Assembly (NCBI GenBank): GCA_019745975.1
Contig: JAIESQ010000019.1
Span: 1-64,000, forward strand
Reading direction: 5' to 3'
Source: Pirellulales bacterium
GTDB taxonomy: Bacteria > Planctomycetota > Planctomycetia > Pirellulales > JAEUIK01
Length of the DNA: 64,000 bases
Below are positions 29,423 to 38,238 of this stretch, piece by piece (position 1 is the stretch's first letter; every line of letters begins with the position of its first letter). The position numbers and the translations under genes are program-made. The notes under the pieces are model-generated. The model had not been told where the DNA came from. It searched no databases and saw nothing but the letters and a program-made list of their open reading frames with translations.

Positions 29423-29635
29423 ATCAGCACTCGTTGCGTGCTGCGCTTCTCTTCTCGCGTTGGTGCGCTAGCACTGCTGTCGCCGCACATCCCGAGAAAT
29501 CGGCACGCGCCGAAGAATCGCTACGCCCCCGACAATCGGTCTAAACCGCACAACCCCGATAAGCCGAACCCAAGAGAAAAGGCGACTAGGACGTCGCGCT
29601 TGAAATTCAGCAAACATCCCGGGGGGGGATCGGCA

Positions 29636-31060
29636 ATGCGTGCCACTTTGATGGCGGTCGGCCTGGCCGCCTTAGTCAGCGGTTCTGCGTCGGCTCAATA
29701 CTCATCTTCGCGCACGCCTTACGCGCAGGGTTACCGTCCGCGTCCGCGCGCCGCGCACGAGTATCCCGTGCATTACCAGCCTGCGAACCCGTTTGATACC
29801 CCCGAGGCGCCGCTGCCCGAAGACGTCGATGCTCCGCGTTCGGACGAGGCAGCCGCCGACACCGAGGCTCCGTTGCCCGACGACGGCCACGGCGACGATT
29901 GTTGCGACGGCTACGGCGACGACTGCGACTACGCCGATTACTGCGACGACGGCTGTTGCCCGAGCGAGCCCTGCGCCCCACCGTGCAGTGCGCCGTGCGG
30001 TGCGCCATGCGATTCGGGTCGCTGCATGTCGGTGTGGGTGAACCTCGATTTCATGGCGCTGTGGCTCAAAGGAGACAAGCTCCCGCCGCTGGTTACGACC
30101 AGCGATCCGGGCACGTCGGCTGCCAACGCCGGCGTGAACGGACTGTCGACCACGCATGTGTTGTTCGGCGATGGCCGCGTGAATCGCGACTTCCGCGCGG
30201 GAGGGCGCGTGCAGACCGGCATGTGGTTCAATCCGGAGCAAACCGTCGGTATCGACGGACACTACTACCAGATTGCCACGGCGGCACAGAACTTCTATTC
30301 GCAAGCGAACTACGCGACGCCCGACCCCTACGCCCACATCCTGGCGATCCCGACGATCAACGGCGCGACGGGTGTGCAGAATGCGACGTTGATCGCGCAT
30401 CCATCGGCCAGCGGCGGGCTGAGCGGCTCGGTGGCCGCGACCTCCACGAGCGACATCTTGTCGGCCGGCGGCGGCGGGCGGATGCAGCTCTGGGGCGATT
30501 GCTGCGGCTGCACGCGGGTCTACGGTACGGGCGGCTATCGCTTCTTCCGCTTGGACGAAGGGCTGACGCTCGAAACGAATAGTCTGTCGAGCCAGGGGAC
30601 GCAGCGCCTTGCGACCTACGATCGCTTCCTGACGTCCAACCAGTTTCAAGGCGGCTACTTCGGCACGCTCGCGCAGGTGACGCGAGGGCCGCTCTGGTTG
30701 TGGGTGGCGCCGCAGATCGCCATCGGCAACATGCAGCAGGTGGCCAATATCAGTGGCGCCACCGGACCGCTATATGGCACGCCGACCGTTGGCTCCGGCA
30801 TCCTGACGCGAGCGTCGAACATCGGCCATCGCTGGCGCGATCACTTCGCTTACATTCCGGAAATCGACATGAAGATCGGCTATCAGATCACGCCCAACTT
30901 TGTGGCCACGTTGGGCTACAACTTCACGTTCCTCTCCTCGGTGGTGCGCCCTGGCACGGTTATCAATCCGGCGATCGGCGGCACGCAGCCGCAGTTTGCT
31001 TACAACGCCACGAGCTTGTGGATGCAGGCGGCGACGGCCGGCTTTCAACTGCGGTTCTAA
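29636..31060 (+). CDS. BBP7-family outer-membrane beta-barrel protein
   Basis: A 474-residue exported protein. The signal peptide MRATLMAVGLAALVSGSASA is followed by a Pro/Asp/Glu-rich segment, a dense Cys/Asp cluster (about residues 82-125, see findings) and the BBP7 barrel. The barrel shows WVNLDFMALWLKGDKLPPLVTTS, VLFGDGRVNRDFRAGGRVQ, GMWFNPEQTVGIDGHYYQI and YGTGGYRFFRLDEGL. The terminal FQLRF is a typical outer-membrane insertion end. BBP7 proteins are abundant in Planctomycetota and uncharacterised. The start is chosen to place the signal peptide at the N-terminus. Confidence 0.93.
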   Translation: MRATLMAVGLAALVSGSASAQYSSSRTPYAQGYRPRPRAAHEYPVHYQPANPFDTPEAPLPEDVDAPRSDEAAADTEAPLPDDGHGDDCCDGYGDDCDYADYCDDGCCPSEPCAPPCSAPCGAPCDSGRCMSVWVNLDFMALWLKGDKLPPLVTTSDPGTSAANAGVNGLSTTHVLFGDGRVNRDFRAGGRVQTGMWFNPEQTVGIDGHYYQIATAAQNFYSQANYATPDPYAHILAIPTINGATGVQNATLIAHPSASGGLSGSVAATSTSDILSAGGGGRMQLWGDCCGCTRVYGTGGYRFFRLDEGLTLETNSLSSQGTQRLATYDRFLTSNQFQGGYFGTLAQVTRGPLWLWVAPQIAIGNMQQVANISGATGPLYGTPTVGSGILTRASNIGHRWRDHFAYIPEIDMKIGYQITPNFVATLGYNFTFLSSVVRPGTVINPAIGGTQPQFAYNATSLWMQAATAGFQLRF

Positions 31061-32073: not shown

Positions 32074-35000
32074 CTACCGCGCCAGGCCCACGCTGAAGTT
32101 GAAAATCTGCTCGCGGTCGGTCGGCGCTTTCTTGACCGGCACGGCGAAGTCCAAGGCAATGGGCGCCGGCCCCATCATCGGGATCGCCAAGCGCAGGCCC
32201 ACGCCGGGAGCAACGCGGAAGCTCTCCCCCTTGAGCTGCGTCACCGGTTCGACGGTACCAAAGTCGCAGAAGACGACGCCACGCAAGGCGTCGTCGGCCT
32301 TGATCGGGAACATGTATTCGACGGTATTGATCCACTGAAAGCGACCACCAACGATCGTGCCCATCTCGACGGGCGAAGCGCCGCGGAAGAAGAAGCCGCG
32401 CAAGGTGCCGTAACCGCCCGCGAAGAAGTTCTCGAAGACTGGTGTGTTGCTGCCGGTGAAGCCCAGCATGGTAACCAATGCCAGGGTCTGACGGCCGGTG
32501 CCGTCGGCCCGCTCGCGTAGCAGGAAATACTGGCTCCCTTCAAACTCCCCGCGCGGGAACGAGAAGGTGCCAAACGCTTGTTCGTAGGCGAACATCAACC
32601 GGTGCCCCTGGGTCGGCATGAAGGGATGATCGCGAGTGTCGTTTGTCAGAGAGAAGCGCGCCGTGTACAGGCCGTTGTTGCCGAGCACATCGAGAACCGA
32701 TTGTGGCGCCGGCAAGGGACGCGGATTCGAGATGCCGACGTTCTCCATTCGCAGCGCCATGGCGATCGACAAGTCGGGGGCGATTTGGCGGCCGAGCGAA
32801 AATCGCCCGCCCAAGCGCTGCTCGGTCCAGTTCTGAAAGAACCGGGTGTAGTAGTAACCGCTCAGGCCCAAGCTGTTCTGCGTATCGAATAGATAGGGCT
32901 CGGTGAAGCTGACCATGTACCGCTGCACGAGCGTGCCTGGCATCGCCTCGATGCGGAAGTGCTGGCCCGACCCGCGCCAGGCGGTGCCGTTGCGGATTTC
33001 GGCCCAACTGCGCGGCCAGCGGCGCCAATCGAAGTTCTGTTCGTCGAGCGTAATCTGGCCGACGAGCCCGGCGTTCGAGTTCACGCCGACGCCAAACATC
33101 AAGCGACCGGTCTGCGTTTCATCGACGTAGACATCCAGCGGCACTTCGATCGTCGGCTCGAGGTCGACCGGGTTGCCAAACGGCTGGGGCTGCGGTTGTG
33201 TGCCTGGGAACAGCTCGCCCGGGTTGTCGTAGCCTTGGGGCGCGGGGAGCACGCCCGGTGCTACCGCGCCCGGGGCCGGCGGCACAGCGCCGCCGCTGAG
33301 CCAGGCGGGCGGGCCCGTGCTGGAAGTCGGCGGCGACGTGGGGCCAGCAATCGGTTGTGCCGGCGCCGCTTGCGGGCCGGGGATGAATCGCGGGCCTGGC
33401 GGAACATAGGGCGCGACTGCGGGGGGATTCACCGGCGGCCTTGGAGGGGGCGCCACGACTGGTCTGGGAGCTGGCGACGGCGAGATCGGCGCTTGACGCA
33501 AGCCGCCGGCCTGTGGACGCGGGGCCGGCACCTGATTCATGTCGAACGTCGGTAGATCCTGTCCCTGCCCAGCGCCGTAGCCAAAGTCCTGTCCGCGCAC
33601 GATTGGTTGTCGTGTGGCCGCGTTGCGAGTTGCCGGCAAGTTCTGAGGATACGGATACGGCCGATTGACTTGATCAGGTTGCGCGATGGTCGCCGGTCGC
33701 GCCGCTACGGCTGCCTGGCCTTGGTGGCGCAGTGCGCTTGCGGCGGGCACGCGCGCGTAGCGACTGCCTGCGACGGGCGGCGCGGTGCGCGGCGCATGCC
33801 CGTTCAGCCAGACATCCTGGCCACGCACGATGGGCTGCAACTGCGGTGGCGACTGGCGTGGCACGGCCGCGGAGGGTCGATGCGGTTGAGGAGCCACAGG
33901 ATTCGGCTGATACCATGGGGGTACAGCCGCGATGGCGGCGGCCCGGTTTGAGGCGGCCGCCGGCGACGCGCACGGCGGCAGCTCGACCTCGATCGTGCCG
34001 TCGTCGAGCACGTGGACAATCGCCAATTCGTCTTCGTCGTCGACGATTGTCTGCTCGAGCATTGCCTCCCACGTGCGCGGCCGACGGGAAGCCGTGCGCG
34101 CACTACTCGCAGTAAGGTCGTCGGGGCTCTGGCCGCGGAACTGCCCGGGCTTCGGTTTGGGGCCGCCGGGATTCTCGGCGATCAATTCCCCGTCGCCATC
34201 CCCTTCACCAGGTGTTGGCGCGGAGAAGACGATCTTCGGCTGGCTGCCGCCAGGCTGTTGATCAGTCATGAAAATGCCCGACGCCTTCAGCCGCCGCTCG
34301 CTGTCGCGCAGTTCGCGAATGTCGAGGATGTCGCCGGGGCGCAACGAAACGCGATTGAGTACGGCCGTGCGCCGGGTGTGTGGATCGTCCCCTTTGATGT
34401 GCACGTTGATCTGGCCGACGCGGCACCGCGCGCCTTCGCTGATCTTGTAGACCAGATCGACCTGGCCGGGCTCTTCGAGGAACCGTGTCTCGGGCTCGAT
34501 CGTGGCGAAAACATAGCCGCGGCCGCCGTAGCACTCTTCCATCGAAGTGACGTCGTGCTGCAGGCGTCCTTGATCGAAATAGTCGCCATTTTCCAGCTTG
34601 AAGGGCTCGCGGAGTTGCTCGGTCGAGAACTTCGTGTTGCCTAGGATGGCCACGTCGCGCACGCGGTAGCGGATGCCTTCGTGGATGACGAAGGTGACGT
34701 GCGCCCAGCGCTGGTCGCGATCGAACTCGAGCTCGCGGCCGACGCGTGCCTGAAAGTAGCCCAGCCGCCGGTAATAGGCGGTGAGCTCGTCGAGATCGTG
34801 CTCGATCTTCTGGGTTTCGACGAAACCCTTGAAGCCGCGGAACAACCCCGGGATGCGAAACATTGGCGGCTTTGTCTGGCAGAGCACTTGCATGCGGCCG
34901 TCGGGCGCGACCGTGTTGCCTTCGAACGAAACGTTGCTGACCTTTTGGAGCGGACCTTCGTTGACCAGGAACGTGACGCCCTGATCGCCCGGCTTATCGC

Positions 35001-35595
35001 CCTCGAGGGTTTTGACCGTGCACTGCGTGTGCCCTTTCTCGCGATACCAGGCTTCGATGCGATTGCGGGCATCCTCGACAATGTAAGGATCGAGGGCTCC
35101 GCCCTTCTTGATGGCGGCTTGCTTATTGAGCTTGCGGCCGACGACATGCTTGTTGCCCACATAGCGGATGTACTTGATGATCGCGCGTTCGACGACCTGG
35201 AACGACACGACGACGCCCCCTTGCACGGGGCGAACGACCGGTCGCACATCGAGGAACAGCTTGCTGGCGTGCAACCGGCGCACGTCCTCTTCGACCATGT
35301 TCTGATCGAGCGGGCGCCCTTTGCGCGTGCGGACATGCGGCCGGATGCTTTCGACCGGCGTTTGATGGTGCCCTTCGACACGCACATCGACGACTAGGGG
35401 ATGGTCGGGGCCCGGCTGGGCGACGACGACTTCGGGGCCCGTCCACTTCGGCTTTTCGGGTGGCCCCTGCGGCATCATGGGACCGCCCGGCGCGCTCATC
35501 TGCGCTTGCGCGCACGCGCTTGCGAGCAGCCAGATGATCCCGGCGCAGGCCAGCACACCGGCCAGACGCGGGGATTTGCGGGGCGATAGAGTCAT
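32074..35595 (-). CDS. bamA: BamA/Omp85-family outer-membrane assembly protein with a very long proline-rich linker
   Basis: 1173 residues, against about 800 for E. coli BamA. After a signal peptide (ends ACAQAQ) come POTRA domains from about 50 to 455, for example VVDVRVEGHHQTPVESI, IKYIRYVGNKHVVGRKL, VSNVSFEGNTVAPDGRM, VRDVAILGNTKFSTEQL and VGQINVHIKGDDPHTRR, suggesting five. A Pro/Ala/Gln-rich linker of about 355 residues (460-815) follows, then the 16-strand barrel (from YVDETQTGRLMFGVGVNSNAG) with the loop-6 motif as YGTLRGFFFRG. It should insert barrel proteins such as the two encoded nearby. The start ATG 35595 puts the signal at the N-terminus. Confidence 0.92.
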   Translation of the reverse strand: MTLSPRKSPRLAGVLACAGIIWLLASACAQAQMSAPGGPMMPQGPPEKPKWTGPEVVVAQPGPDHPLVVDVRVEGHHQTPVESIRPHVRTRKGRPLDQNMVEEDVRRLHASKLFLDVRPVVRPVQGGVVVSFQVVERAIIKYIRYVGNKHVVGRKLNKQAAIKKGGALDPYIVEDARNRIEAWYREKGHTQCTVKTLEGDKPGDQGVTFLVNEGPLQKVSNVSFEGNTVAPDGRMQVLCQTKPPMFRIPGLFRGFKGFVETQKIEHDLDELTAYYRRLGYFQARVGRELEFDRDQRWAHVTFVIHEGIRYRVRDVAILGNTKFSTEQLREPFKLENGDYFDQGRLQHDVTSMEECYGGRGYVFATIEPETRFLEEPGQVDLVYKISEGARCRVGQINVHIKGDDPHTRRTAVLNRVSLRPGDILDIRELRDSERRLKASGIFMTDQQPGGSQPKIVFSAPTPGEGDGDGELIAENPGGPKPKPGQFRGQSPDDLTASSARTASRRPRTWEAMLEQTIVDDEDELAIVHVLDDGTIEVELPPCASPAAASNRAAAIAAVPPWYQPNPVAPQPHRPSAAVPRQSPPQLQPIVRGQDVWLNGHAPRTAPPVAGSRYARVPAASALRHQGQAAVAARPATIAQPDQVNRPYPYPQNLPATRNAATRQPIVRGQDFGYGAGQGQDLPTFDMNQVPAPRPQAGGLRQAPISPSPAPRPVVAPPPRPPVNPPAVAPYVPPGPRFIPGPQAAPAQPIAGPTSPPTSSTGPPAWLSGGAVPPAPGAVAPGVLPAPQGYDNPGELFPGTQPQPQPFGNPVDLEPTIEVPLDVYVDETQTGRLMFGVGVNSNAGLVGQITLDEQNFDWRRWPRSWAEIRNGTAWRGSGQHFRIEAMPGTLVQRYMVSFTEPYLFDTQNSLGLSGYYYTRFFQNWTEQRLGGRFSLGRQIAPDLSIAMALRMENVGISNPRPLPAPQSVLDVLGNNGLYTARFSLTNDTRDHPFMPTQGHRLMFAYEQAFGTFSFPRGEFEGSQYFLLRERADGTGRQTLALVTMLGFTGSNTPVFENFFAGGYGTLRGFFFRGASPVEMGTIVGGRFQWINTVEYMFPIKADDALRGVVFCDFGTVEPVTQLKGESFRVAPGVGLRLAIPMMGPAPIALDFAVPVKKAPTDREQIFNFSVGLAR

Positions 35596-36219
35596 CAACG
35601 ACCGTTCCGTGGTTGCGCCGACCGGCGCAGTTTCTGACAGGATGGCGGCGCGGTGTCCGCCCGGCCCGCAAGGGACGCCGCCGAATTCGCGGCGCGCGGC
35701 GATTGGCGCGCAGCGGCCTCGGCGCCCCATTTTTGGGCCGCGTAGAGATACTTGAACCGCACCGCGGCGGCAAGGCGGATTGTTACGCTGGGCGAAACTC
35801 CCGCTAGATCGTGGATTTGGGTAGATTGGCGAGGAAAATCGCTTCTGTCGGCCCGCCGAATTCGCCAATTGCTCAAGGGAAGTCCGTCATCGACTTAAGC
35901 TTAGTCTTGCCGACGCCTTCCCTGGAGTGCTAGCAGTGGGGTTGCGTCGCGAGCAGCTAGCTCGCGTGATGGCGGGCGAGTAATCTGCTTTGCCAGCCGA
36001 GTTCGCCTTGGGATTAGGTTGCTGCGGCCCTCCGATCGCGGTTGCGGAGAGAGTGCGATTCAGTCCAGCTCAAAGCGTCGCGTGCGGCCTATCAACCGAT
36101 CCAAGAGCCGATCGGCCGCCCGGGCCGGCGACGATCAATGCACCGTTGATCCGTCGTCAGGTGACGTCGATTTCAACATGGAACATGAGTAGCCGACGGC
36201 AACCGTCTTGGTGACGCAC
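35596..36219. other. about 620 bp between divergent genes with a degenerate family A repeat
   Basis: A worn family A palindrome (AGGGAAG near 35877 and CTTCCCT near 35919) is followed by GTGCTAGCAG and a GCGAG-cagcta-GCTCGC hairpin (about 35950-35966). Promoters of the BamA gene and the polytopic membrane gene should be here. No gene was recognised. Confidence 0.45.
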
Positions 36220-38238
36220 ATGATCGGGTACGGCCCTTCTGAGAGCCTCGCGTCCGCCGCGCAAGGGACGGGTGGTGCGCGTGAACCCAAGCTGACGACG
36301 ATTGCCCTCCGGGCCACGATGCTCGTGCTCGTGTTCCTGGCTTTTCTGGCAAGCGGATTGTGGGTTCGAGCACCGTACCGCGACGCCTTTTTCTGGGCGG
36401 ATGACTATTTGTTCCTGCGCGAGATCGGATTGTATCAAACAGGGCGTTTGTCGTTTTCCGGTTATTTGTTTGAGAACGAAGGCGGCGGGCACTTTCTCGC
36501 GTTGGGAAAGCTGTTGTTCTACCTGGAATGGCGAGCGTTTGGCTTGAATACGTCGAACTGGCGCCTTGTCACCGAGCTCGTACAAGCAGGTTCGGCGTTG
36601 ATGCTTTACTTGTTGCTGAGGGCGTATCGAGTTGCTGCGCTAGGCGCCTTCGCCGGTGCACTCTTATGGGCGGGCATGGCCGGGGGAGGTGTGGATAATC
36701 CCCTGCAGTGGCTCACGTGTCAGTTCTTTGCAATCTCTTTGGCTCTTGTGCTGGCGGCGATGGTTGTCGTTTCGCACACCAGCAGGCTCGGCCGCTGGAG
36801 CCCTTGGCTGGTATTTACCCTGTCCAGTGTCGCCGTGCTGACGTGGTCGAACGCCTTGCCGATGCTGGGCGCGATTCCACTTCAGGTACGGATGCTAGGT
36901 TGGAATATCCAGGCCGGCACTGCGGCTCGACTACGCCGACAAGTGTTGATCGCGGTCGGGGGAGCGGCCGGTTTGGTCGCCGCGCCGCAACTGTTGGTCT
37001 TGGCAATGCTCACGATGGCGGGAGGCAGAGAGCTCCATCTTTCGGTAACGGAGCATGGCGAGCGGACGTCGGCTCAAACCGTGTCCGCGTGCGGTATCTT
37101 GATTTACGACTTGCCACCGGTCCTGCCGATGCTGCGAGCAAGTGGCGCGAACCAACGCGGATTGGGAATCGAACTCTGGGAATTTGTCAGTAAGAAGCAG
37201 CCAGAAATTGCCAACGCGCTCTACCCACATCAGTTCGCACAATTCAAGGAACGCCTCTCGCAAGTTGCGCGTCCGCTGCGGCTCGCCGACTTCCTGGCAC
37301 CTGGCGCGCTTGCCGGTGTCCTCCTCGCGGTCTCGTTGGCTGTGGCGGCGCCGCCTGGACGCGTTCTCCTGATGATCTTGTTCGCCATGACGCTCATGCA
37401 GTCGTTCCTCATCAACCTGGGGAGTACCGGCGATAGCTTGGCCGAGGCGATTGGCTTTACGCACTACGTGTACCATGTGGCGCTCCCGTGGTGTGCCTGC
37501 CTAGGTGTGTTGGCGGATGCAACGGTGCGTGCGAGCCGACGGGTCGGAGCCGCGTGGCTAGCGCTCGTGTGGGTGTTGCCAATTACCGCCGTGTTAGTAC
37601 ACCAAAGAACCGTCGCCGCCGATGGTCGTGAGATGTTCGACGCGGCCGCCTGCGCGAATCAAATCACGCATCGCTGGAACGAATTGCTTTTTGAGCAAAT
37701 CGCTCAACGGCGGTCCAATCAGGCAGCCAGACTGATATTGCCAGACGTGCCGACAACAGTTTCCGTGCCGCAGTCGTATTACTGGCCGGCGTCCGCGTAT
37801 TTTGCGGCGATGCTACCGCAGGTTACTTGCGTCGAGTTCGTGTCCTGCGGCGATTGTGGAATCAGGCAATGGCAGGAGGCCGTCGCATTGTTTGCCGGGC
37901 ACACTCACCATAGTGCGAACGATTGGTCGGGCAACGTTTCGTCGTGCTATCGGTGGGCGAAAGCCCTGGAGTTCCTCGACCGGCGTGCGAATTTGCGGGG
38001 AACAGTTTTAGCGATTCCAGACATCGACGCTCGATTTGACAACGCCATGACCGTCCCGCTTAGCAGTTTCCTCAAGTGGGGCTATCGAGTTGAATTGAAA
38101 CACCTCAGAATTGTGTCCCATGATTCAATGAAACCAGCCGATCGGACGATGCTCGCCGCTCGGGTCGAAGAATTACCGGAAGACGTTCGCCACTTCTGGC
38201 AAGCTCAACTGTCGCTAGGTCAAGTCACAGACCCGTGA
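36220..38238 (+). CDS. polytopic membrane protein, possibly GT-C glycosyltransferase-like
   Basis: About 672 residues with roughly ten transmembrane helices (first at about 30-50: ATMLVLVFLAFLASGLWV) and a C-terminal soluble part of about 200 residues. Directly after helix 1 is RDAFFWADDYLFLREIG, whose D-D pair is placed like the catalytic acidic motif of GT-C enzymes. The soluble part contains CVEFVSCGDCGIRQW and YYWPASAYFAAML and is not recognised. GC content and codon use look lower than in neighbours, which may mark transfer. ATG 36220 is the likeliest start; TTG 36208 is also in frame. Confidence 0.7.
   Translation: MIGYGPSESLASAAQGTGGAREPKLTTIALRATMLVLVFLAFLASGLWVRAPYRDAFFWADDYLFLREIGLYQTGRLSFSGYLFENEGGGHFLALGKLLFYLEWRAFGLNTSNWRLVTELVQAGSALMLYLLLRAYRVAALGAFAGALLWAGMAGGGVDNPLQWLTCQFFAISLALVLAAMVVVSHTSRLGRWSPWLVFTLSSVAVLTWSNALPMLGAIPLQVRMLGWNIQAGTAARLRRQVLIAVGGAAGLVAAPQLLVLAMLTMAGGRELHLSVTEHGERTSAQTVSACGILIYDLPPVLPMLRASGANQRGLGIELWEFVSKKQPEIANALYPHQFAQFKERLSQVARPLRLADFLAPGALAGVLLAVSLAVAAPPGRVLLMILFAMTLMQSFLINLGSTGDSLAEAIGFTHYVYHVALPWCACLGVLADATVRASRRVGAAWLALVWVLPITAVLVHQRTVAADGREMFDAAACANQITHRWNELLFEQIAQRRSNQAARLILPDVPTTVSVPQSYYWPASAYFAAMLPQVTCVEFVSCGDCGIRQWQEAVALFAGHTHHSANDWSGNVSSCYRWAKALEFLDRRANLRGTVLAIPDIDARFDNAMTVPLSSFLKWGYRVELKHLRIVSHDSMKPADRTMLAARVEELPEDVRHFWQAQLSLGQVTDP

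Follow-up and report, generated by a model that had tools for sequence, protein, structure and literature searches.

Where in BamA does a proline-rich insert of about 350 residues sit, and what could it be for? The question is raised by the bamA gene on the minus strand of the window, the whole 64,000-nucleotide stretch of a Pirellulales genome that we analysed. BamA is the central insertase of the outer membrane. In E. coli and others, the family covered by the model TIGR03303, it has an Omp85 barrel preceded by POTRA repeats, and the window protein has the same arrangement. Unlike E. coli-type BamA, it appears to have an insertion of some 350 residues at the turn that joins strands β2 and β3 of POTRA5. 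In the reading that we prefer, and to which we give a probability of roughly 0.6, the protein is an intact BamA whose insert occupies a break-tolerant site; at this site, bamA would have been cut into two genes in 5 of 20 families of the order, with the two chains rejoining.

The window gene and the position of its insert

Translation of the minus strand gives one reading frame that begins with ATG at 35595, stops at 32074-32076 and has no internal stops; the frame is open further upstream, as far as a TTG at 35868. Pfam analysis of the product detected four POTRA stretches and Omp85, and the score of 372.2 bits against the BamA equivalog model TIGR03303 is above the cut-off of 297.15. POTRA5, the last of the five POTRAs expected before the barrel of a BamA, has no Pfam match: it is visible by alignment alone and is broken by the insert. 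The protein is also the sole Omp85 match of the 6.98-Mb genome. Judged from its sequence, the gene in the window encodes an intact BamA (Table 1). The ASAC in its signal sequence passes a home-made lipobox rule, so that the N-terminus may be lipidated. The neighbours of bamA in the window encode a BBP7 porin (29438-31060) and a 676-residue protein for which Pfam gave no hit at E 0.01 (36208-38238).

Table 1. Features of the bamA gene, in window coordinates.
Feature	Position	Strand	Basis
bamA, 1173 aa plus stop, single ORF	32074..35595	-	translation; Pfam; TIGR03303 372 bits vs cut-off 297
N-terminal signal sequence, residues 1-31, end ...ASACAQAQ	35503..35595	-	read by eye
POTRA1 to POTRA5 strand β2, residues 66-460	34216..35400	-	Pfam POTRA; phmmer to solved BamA; alignment
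Pro/Ala-rich insert, residues 461-812, probably disordered	33160..34215	-	composition; insertion site by alignment
Box 1, FRGQSPD, residues 486-492	34120..34140	-	recurs in relatives
First QPIVRGQD, residues 587-594	33814..33837	-	sequence
Second QPIVRGQD, residues 663-670	33586..33609	-	sequence
Strand β3 of POTRA5, TIEVPLDVYVDE, residues 815-826	33118..33153	-	alignment with nine linkerless BamAs and known fold
Omp85 barrel, residues 831-1173	32077..33105	-	Pfam Omp85

Proline accounts for 20.7% of the insert, alanine for 14.8%, glycine for 9.1% and glutamine for 7.7%. Nine linkerless BamAs from the same class show what the region looks like without it: the end of β2 (PTVEF in one of them) is followed by about 9-14 residues, β3 (QDIRVRVQEAQTG in the same protein) and the barrel. 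Alignment of these nine with the window protein, taken minus most of its linker, identified the window counterparts as PKIVFSAP and TIEVPLDVYVDE, which are separated by about 350 residues. The names β2 and β3 follow the known POTRA fold, which we take the window POTRA5 to share. Using phmmer, residues 105-453 of the window protein (P0001) aligned to the Bacteroidota BamA 9hj3, ending at 9hj3 residue 437, and the barrel part from residue 796 aligned to 9hj3 residue 432; this is the only solved-structure alignment across the break, with a weak match for the barrel part (i-Evalue 2.9). An AlphaFold model of P0001 with P0002 had a mean pLDDT of 27.6 and was discarded as uninformative. On the basis of the alignment with the sister BamAs, with which both the 9hj3 matches and the way in which split gene pairs divide TIGR03303 (see below) agree, a loop within the β2-β3 turn of POTRA5 is the most plausible reading of the insert.

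The first-pass annotation had described a proline-rich insert of about 355 residues between the POTRAs and the barrel. The insert is real and lies in one uninterrupted ORF, but the alignment places it inside POTRA5, between β2 and β3, rather than at the POTRA-barrel junction. This bears on the proposed role of the insert as a tether, a flexible arm that would join a complete POTRA5 to the barrel and let the POTRAs reach across a wide periplasm. The length and composition of the insert suit a flexible linker, and, should the alignment with the linkerless BamAs be wrong, PKIVF could represent the final strand of POTRA5. However, these sister proteins have both the PTVEF-like and the β3 stretches, and the window protein has both as well, on opposite sides of the insert. 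With the last POTRA5 strand on the barrel side, the POTRA-barrel distance would be the usual one if POTRA5 folds, and the insert would be a loop. The suggested fit to an enlarged planctomycetal envelope fares no better, since 9 of the 19 same-class relatives outside the order have a linkerless BamA (open frames of 793-853 aa; families f23, f24 and f25) and the planctomycetal envelope can thus do without the insert. We therefore regard the arm as unlikely. Our preferred reading gives the window's insert a concrete meaning, that of a loop at a break-tolerant site and not of a reach extender; in the window's species the loop would be covalently closed and the POTRA-barrel distance should stay unchanged.

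Fused and split bamA genes among relatives

The window protein has matches in 38 of 40 relatives (the window's genome counted; G001 and G009 without match), in 39 of 40 genomes of the order, which mostly overlap the 40 relatives (G009 without match), in all 24 genomes of the class (window counted) and in all 31 genomes of family f15. In the same-class genomes outside the order, POTRAs and barrel are encoded in one ORF in 19 of 19; apart from the nine linkerless proteins, ten of these BamAs are longer, with 950-1206 aa (f21 and f22). G009, a member of family f4 listed as 99% complete, gave no match, and its family mate G027 (88% complete, 6% contamination) has two split bamA loci, L039 and L040. 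A divergent linkerless BamA with an open frame of 830 aa and 27% identity (L073, G035:C535) was found in an f14 genome (83% complete, 5% contamination) and is perhaps the gene of another organism. G024 has a second POTRA match (G024:C19:142660-143778; 32% identity, 566-aa frame), for which a barrel match was absent from the search of the 40 relatives.

We called bamA split or fused from stop-to-stop ORFs at 69 loci in 68 genomes of the order (L034-L042, L047-L072, L074-L077 and L100-L129), a set without the window, L002 and the divergent L073, and also without G003 and G006, in which the two halves are on separate contigs. Forty loci are split, 27 are fused and two at contig edges are undecidable (L075 and L076). 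In five related families BamA is encoded by two genes, unlike E. coli-type BamA: split loci occur in 39 of the 68 genomes and belong to f2, f3, f4, f8 and f15, while the other 15 families are fused, and among decided loci no family mixes the two states. All 33 f15 loci, from 33 of 33 genomes, have a split bamA; sampling is uneven, as this family makes up 33 of the 68 genomes. To judge from its size, f15 may be the Pirellulaceae.

The fused loci also bear on the error that the first-pass annotation had named as fatal to its claim, namely that a frameshift or an accidental fusion of two genes in the assembly produced the linker. At the 27 fused loci among the 69, POTRAs, insert and barrel lie in one intact ORF, and among 28 fused proteins of the order (counting the window and L002 but not the divergent L073) the linker ranges from 134 to 416 residues. 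The insert is, as far as these gene sequences tell, a lineage trait of the order, and its being common to the order excludes a frameshift. Within the window gene, the linker has a third-position GC of 0.73, the POTRA part one of 0.80 and the barrel part one of 0.83, and the five other frames have 2 to 10 stops each across the linker. These coding-like codon positions in a single ORF count against an artefact, as does the conservation of boxes and flanks. The halves of G003 and G006 on two contigs indicate that the region can be hard to assemble, but no other support for an artefact was found and its probability is close to nil.

In split pairs, the upstream gene encodes the POTRAs and ends past β2, in seven loci only 7-11 residues past it. 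The downstream gene starts near or inside the end of the upstream gene and encodes its own signal peptide, a proline-rich stretch, β3 and the barrel. For 8 of the 40 downstream genes, the start with the best score gives a 4-nt overlap with the upstream stop, under a score that favoured 4-nt-type overlaps and lipoboxes. At 39 of the 40 split loci, L036 among them, the β3 segment is part of the barrel half; the pattern search missed it at L036, where it was visible in a separate look, and at the remaining locus, L104, the contig runs out. Two pairs from single-contig genomes divide TIGR03303 between them, the halves of L110 covering model positions 2-367 and 395-738 and those of L117 positions 3-370 and 418-738. 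The four halves score 203, 143, 221 and 170 bits, each below 297, and simple addition of the two scores per pair gives 346 and 390 bits. Neither half would thus be filed as BamA alone although the pair spans the model, and a split BamA would explain how annotation with the BamA model can miss BamA in these families.

The pairs might instead be decaying or independent genes, with the barrel or the POTRA protein working alone, and barrel-only Omp85 proteins of a 'noNterm' type are indeed described in the available text of PMC4104836. Against this, the halves are adjacent at 40 loci, both halves match the BamA model in the two pairs above, and 11 of 12 split genomes checked have a single Omp85 match and hence no other Omp85 barrel. 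In four pairs, Pfam assigned only POTRA families to the first half and only Omp85 to the second. We consider independent function very unlikely. A naturally split BamA with no other Omp85 barrel beside it, as in 11 of the 12 genomes checked, would show that the covalent POTRA-barrel link is dispensable, and it would make transmission from POTRA5 to the barrel directly testable. A second, weak Omp85 match of 40 bits with an open frame of 589 aa was seen in G068 (G068:C1:5046488-5047015).

Signals and RGQ boxes on the two halves

Under one uniform home-made rule, a lipobox-type signal is present on 32 of 40 barrel halves versus 6 of 40 POTRA halves, on 2 of 27 fused N-termini and in none of the 27 fused linkers. 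Inspection by hand gave a candidate lipobox in 36 of 40 barrel halves, 28 of them near consensus; the halves without one are those of L039, L040, L042 and L109. None of the hand-found candidates has Asp at +2. According to the Lol rule of E. coli, absence of Asp at this position favours the outer membrane, and by this rule the outer membrane would be favoured for the barrel halves.

The octapeptide QPIVRGQD, which had been reported near residues 584 and 662, does occur twice (Table 1), and an exact 8-residue repeat arose in one of 2000 shuffles of the linker. As the proposed search of homologues for similar repeats revealed, RGQSPD-like and [VI]R[GAM]Q-like boxes recur in relatives within an otherwise variable insert (one alignment of 17 proteins). 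With loose patterns and the whole protein scanned, at least one box is present in 26 of 28 fused proteins, the window counted. At the 40 split loci, the same kind of loose patterns placed boxes on both sides in 22, on the barrel side only in nine, on the POTRA side only in three and on neither in six. The recurrence of short boxes makes the partner binding put forward by the first-pass annotation possible, but no partner was found. The insert in the window's species probably serves to carry RGQ boxes rather than to lengthen the POTRA arm. The BamAs of L083-L087 in family f21 (956-1107 aa) have no RGQ box, and their added length may have a separate origin. A family of RGQ proteins in the window's genome was considered and rejected: RGQSPD has four sites genome-wide versus one in the reversed control, and no family was found. 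The sites outside bamA are in reading frames of 51 and 187 residues and, in the form RGQTPE, in a 595-residue frame that looks amidohydrolase-like by eye.

Short recurrent motifs in a disordered stretch, at the place where relatives are cut at the gene level, could also be protease sites, in which case cleavage at the insert would yield a two-chain BamA in the window's species too. But at least one box is kept at 34 of 40 split loci (loose patterns), where cleavage would be purposeless; the retention of boxes after the split favours binding over cleavage, and we judge processing by a protease quite improbable.

For the split families, we propose that two exported chains meet in the periplasm and form one working BamA. 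The β3 strand of the barrel chain would complete POTRA5 of the other chain by strand complementation, the lipid would anchor the barrel chain, and RGQ boxes on both halves might help to hold the halves together or to a shared partner. The site would tolerate breaks because POTRA5 is able to close over the insert. Slightly less firmly than the main reading, but still with better than even odds, we propose that BamA in f15 (33 of 33 genomes) and the four other families is an obligate two-chain protein, in which POTRA5 is shared by two chains, one soluble and bearing the POTRAs, the other bearing the barrel and mostly lipid-anchored, and that the window protein represents the covalent ancestor-type state. 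If BamA is indeed two-chain in these families, its POTRA arm might be detached, exchanged or regulated.

Order of events and relation to known Omp85 proteins

In a tree of the POTRA and barrel columns, with the linker omitted, the split label needs four changes, and the starred branches force two changes (39 rows) or three (78 rows, including an outgroup and 20 of the 33 loci of f15); five changes are required without the outgroup. The earliest branches within the order are fused, G003 and G006 being labelled fused despite their halves on two contigs. Together, the label changes and the fused first branches favour several fissions of a linker-bearing gene, but the AU test did not reject a single split clade (p 0.19) and the root of the tree depends on one long branch. 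On the same two grounds, the split state could be older within the order, with a later re-fusion giving the window gene. Yet the same-class relatives outside the order are fused throughout, so are the first branches of the order (one of them, G003, with halves on two contigs), and a signal-like remnant, sought in the 27 fused linkers and in the linker of the window, was not found. Re-fusion is accordingly an improbable order of events.

Two kinds of described Omp85 protein resemble the split barrel halves. The available text of PMC4104836 sorts Omp85 proteins into ten groups that include lipoproteins and POTRA-less barrels; its main text, as far as available, has no mention of Planctomycetes. 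TamL, or Omp85 'Lipo', of Bacteroidetes and Chlorobi has a lipoprotein signal like the split barrel halves, but in TamL, as outlined in the accessible parts of PMC4104836 and PMC6604945, the lipid precedes three POTRAs on one chain, whereas here it would precede the proline-rich stretch and barrel, with the POTRAs on another gene. The TamL model NF052279 gave only 20-45 bits for the window protein and four halves, versus a cut-off of 400, and these proteins do not score as TamL. Like the split barrel halves, the 'noNterm' barrels have no POTRAs on the same chain, and the text available of PMC4104836 connects them with the metalloprotease Omp85 group without mention of a POTRA gene as partner. 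Unlike them, the split barrel halves match the BamA model and adjoin a POTRA gene.

BamA was noted in the Planctomycetes genomes then published, with no POTRA or linker detail in the accessible portion of PMC3422733, and bamA is reported to be essential in Planctopirus limnophila (PMC10632474). The literature examined, as far as its text was available, treats BamA as a single chain, and no report of a split BamA was found in the literature searched, which comprised no subscription papers or preprints; the consulted portion of a 2026 review (PMC13067283) contains no mention of planctomycet, linker or separate gene. A gene order common to all six loci examined for synteny was not found. The pair at L038 lies beside apt-like and sigma-70 genes, a neighbourhood not shown for the other five of these loci and one that is also found near the window bamA.
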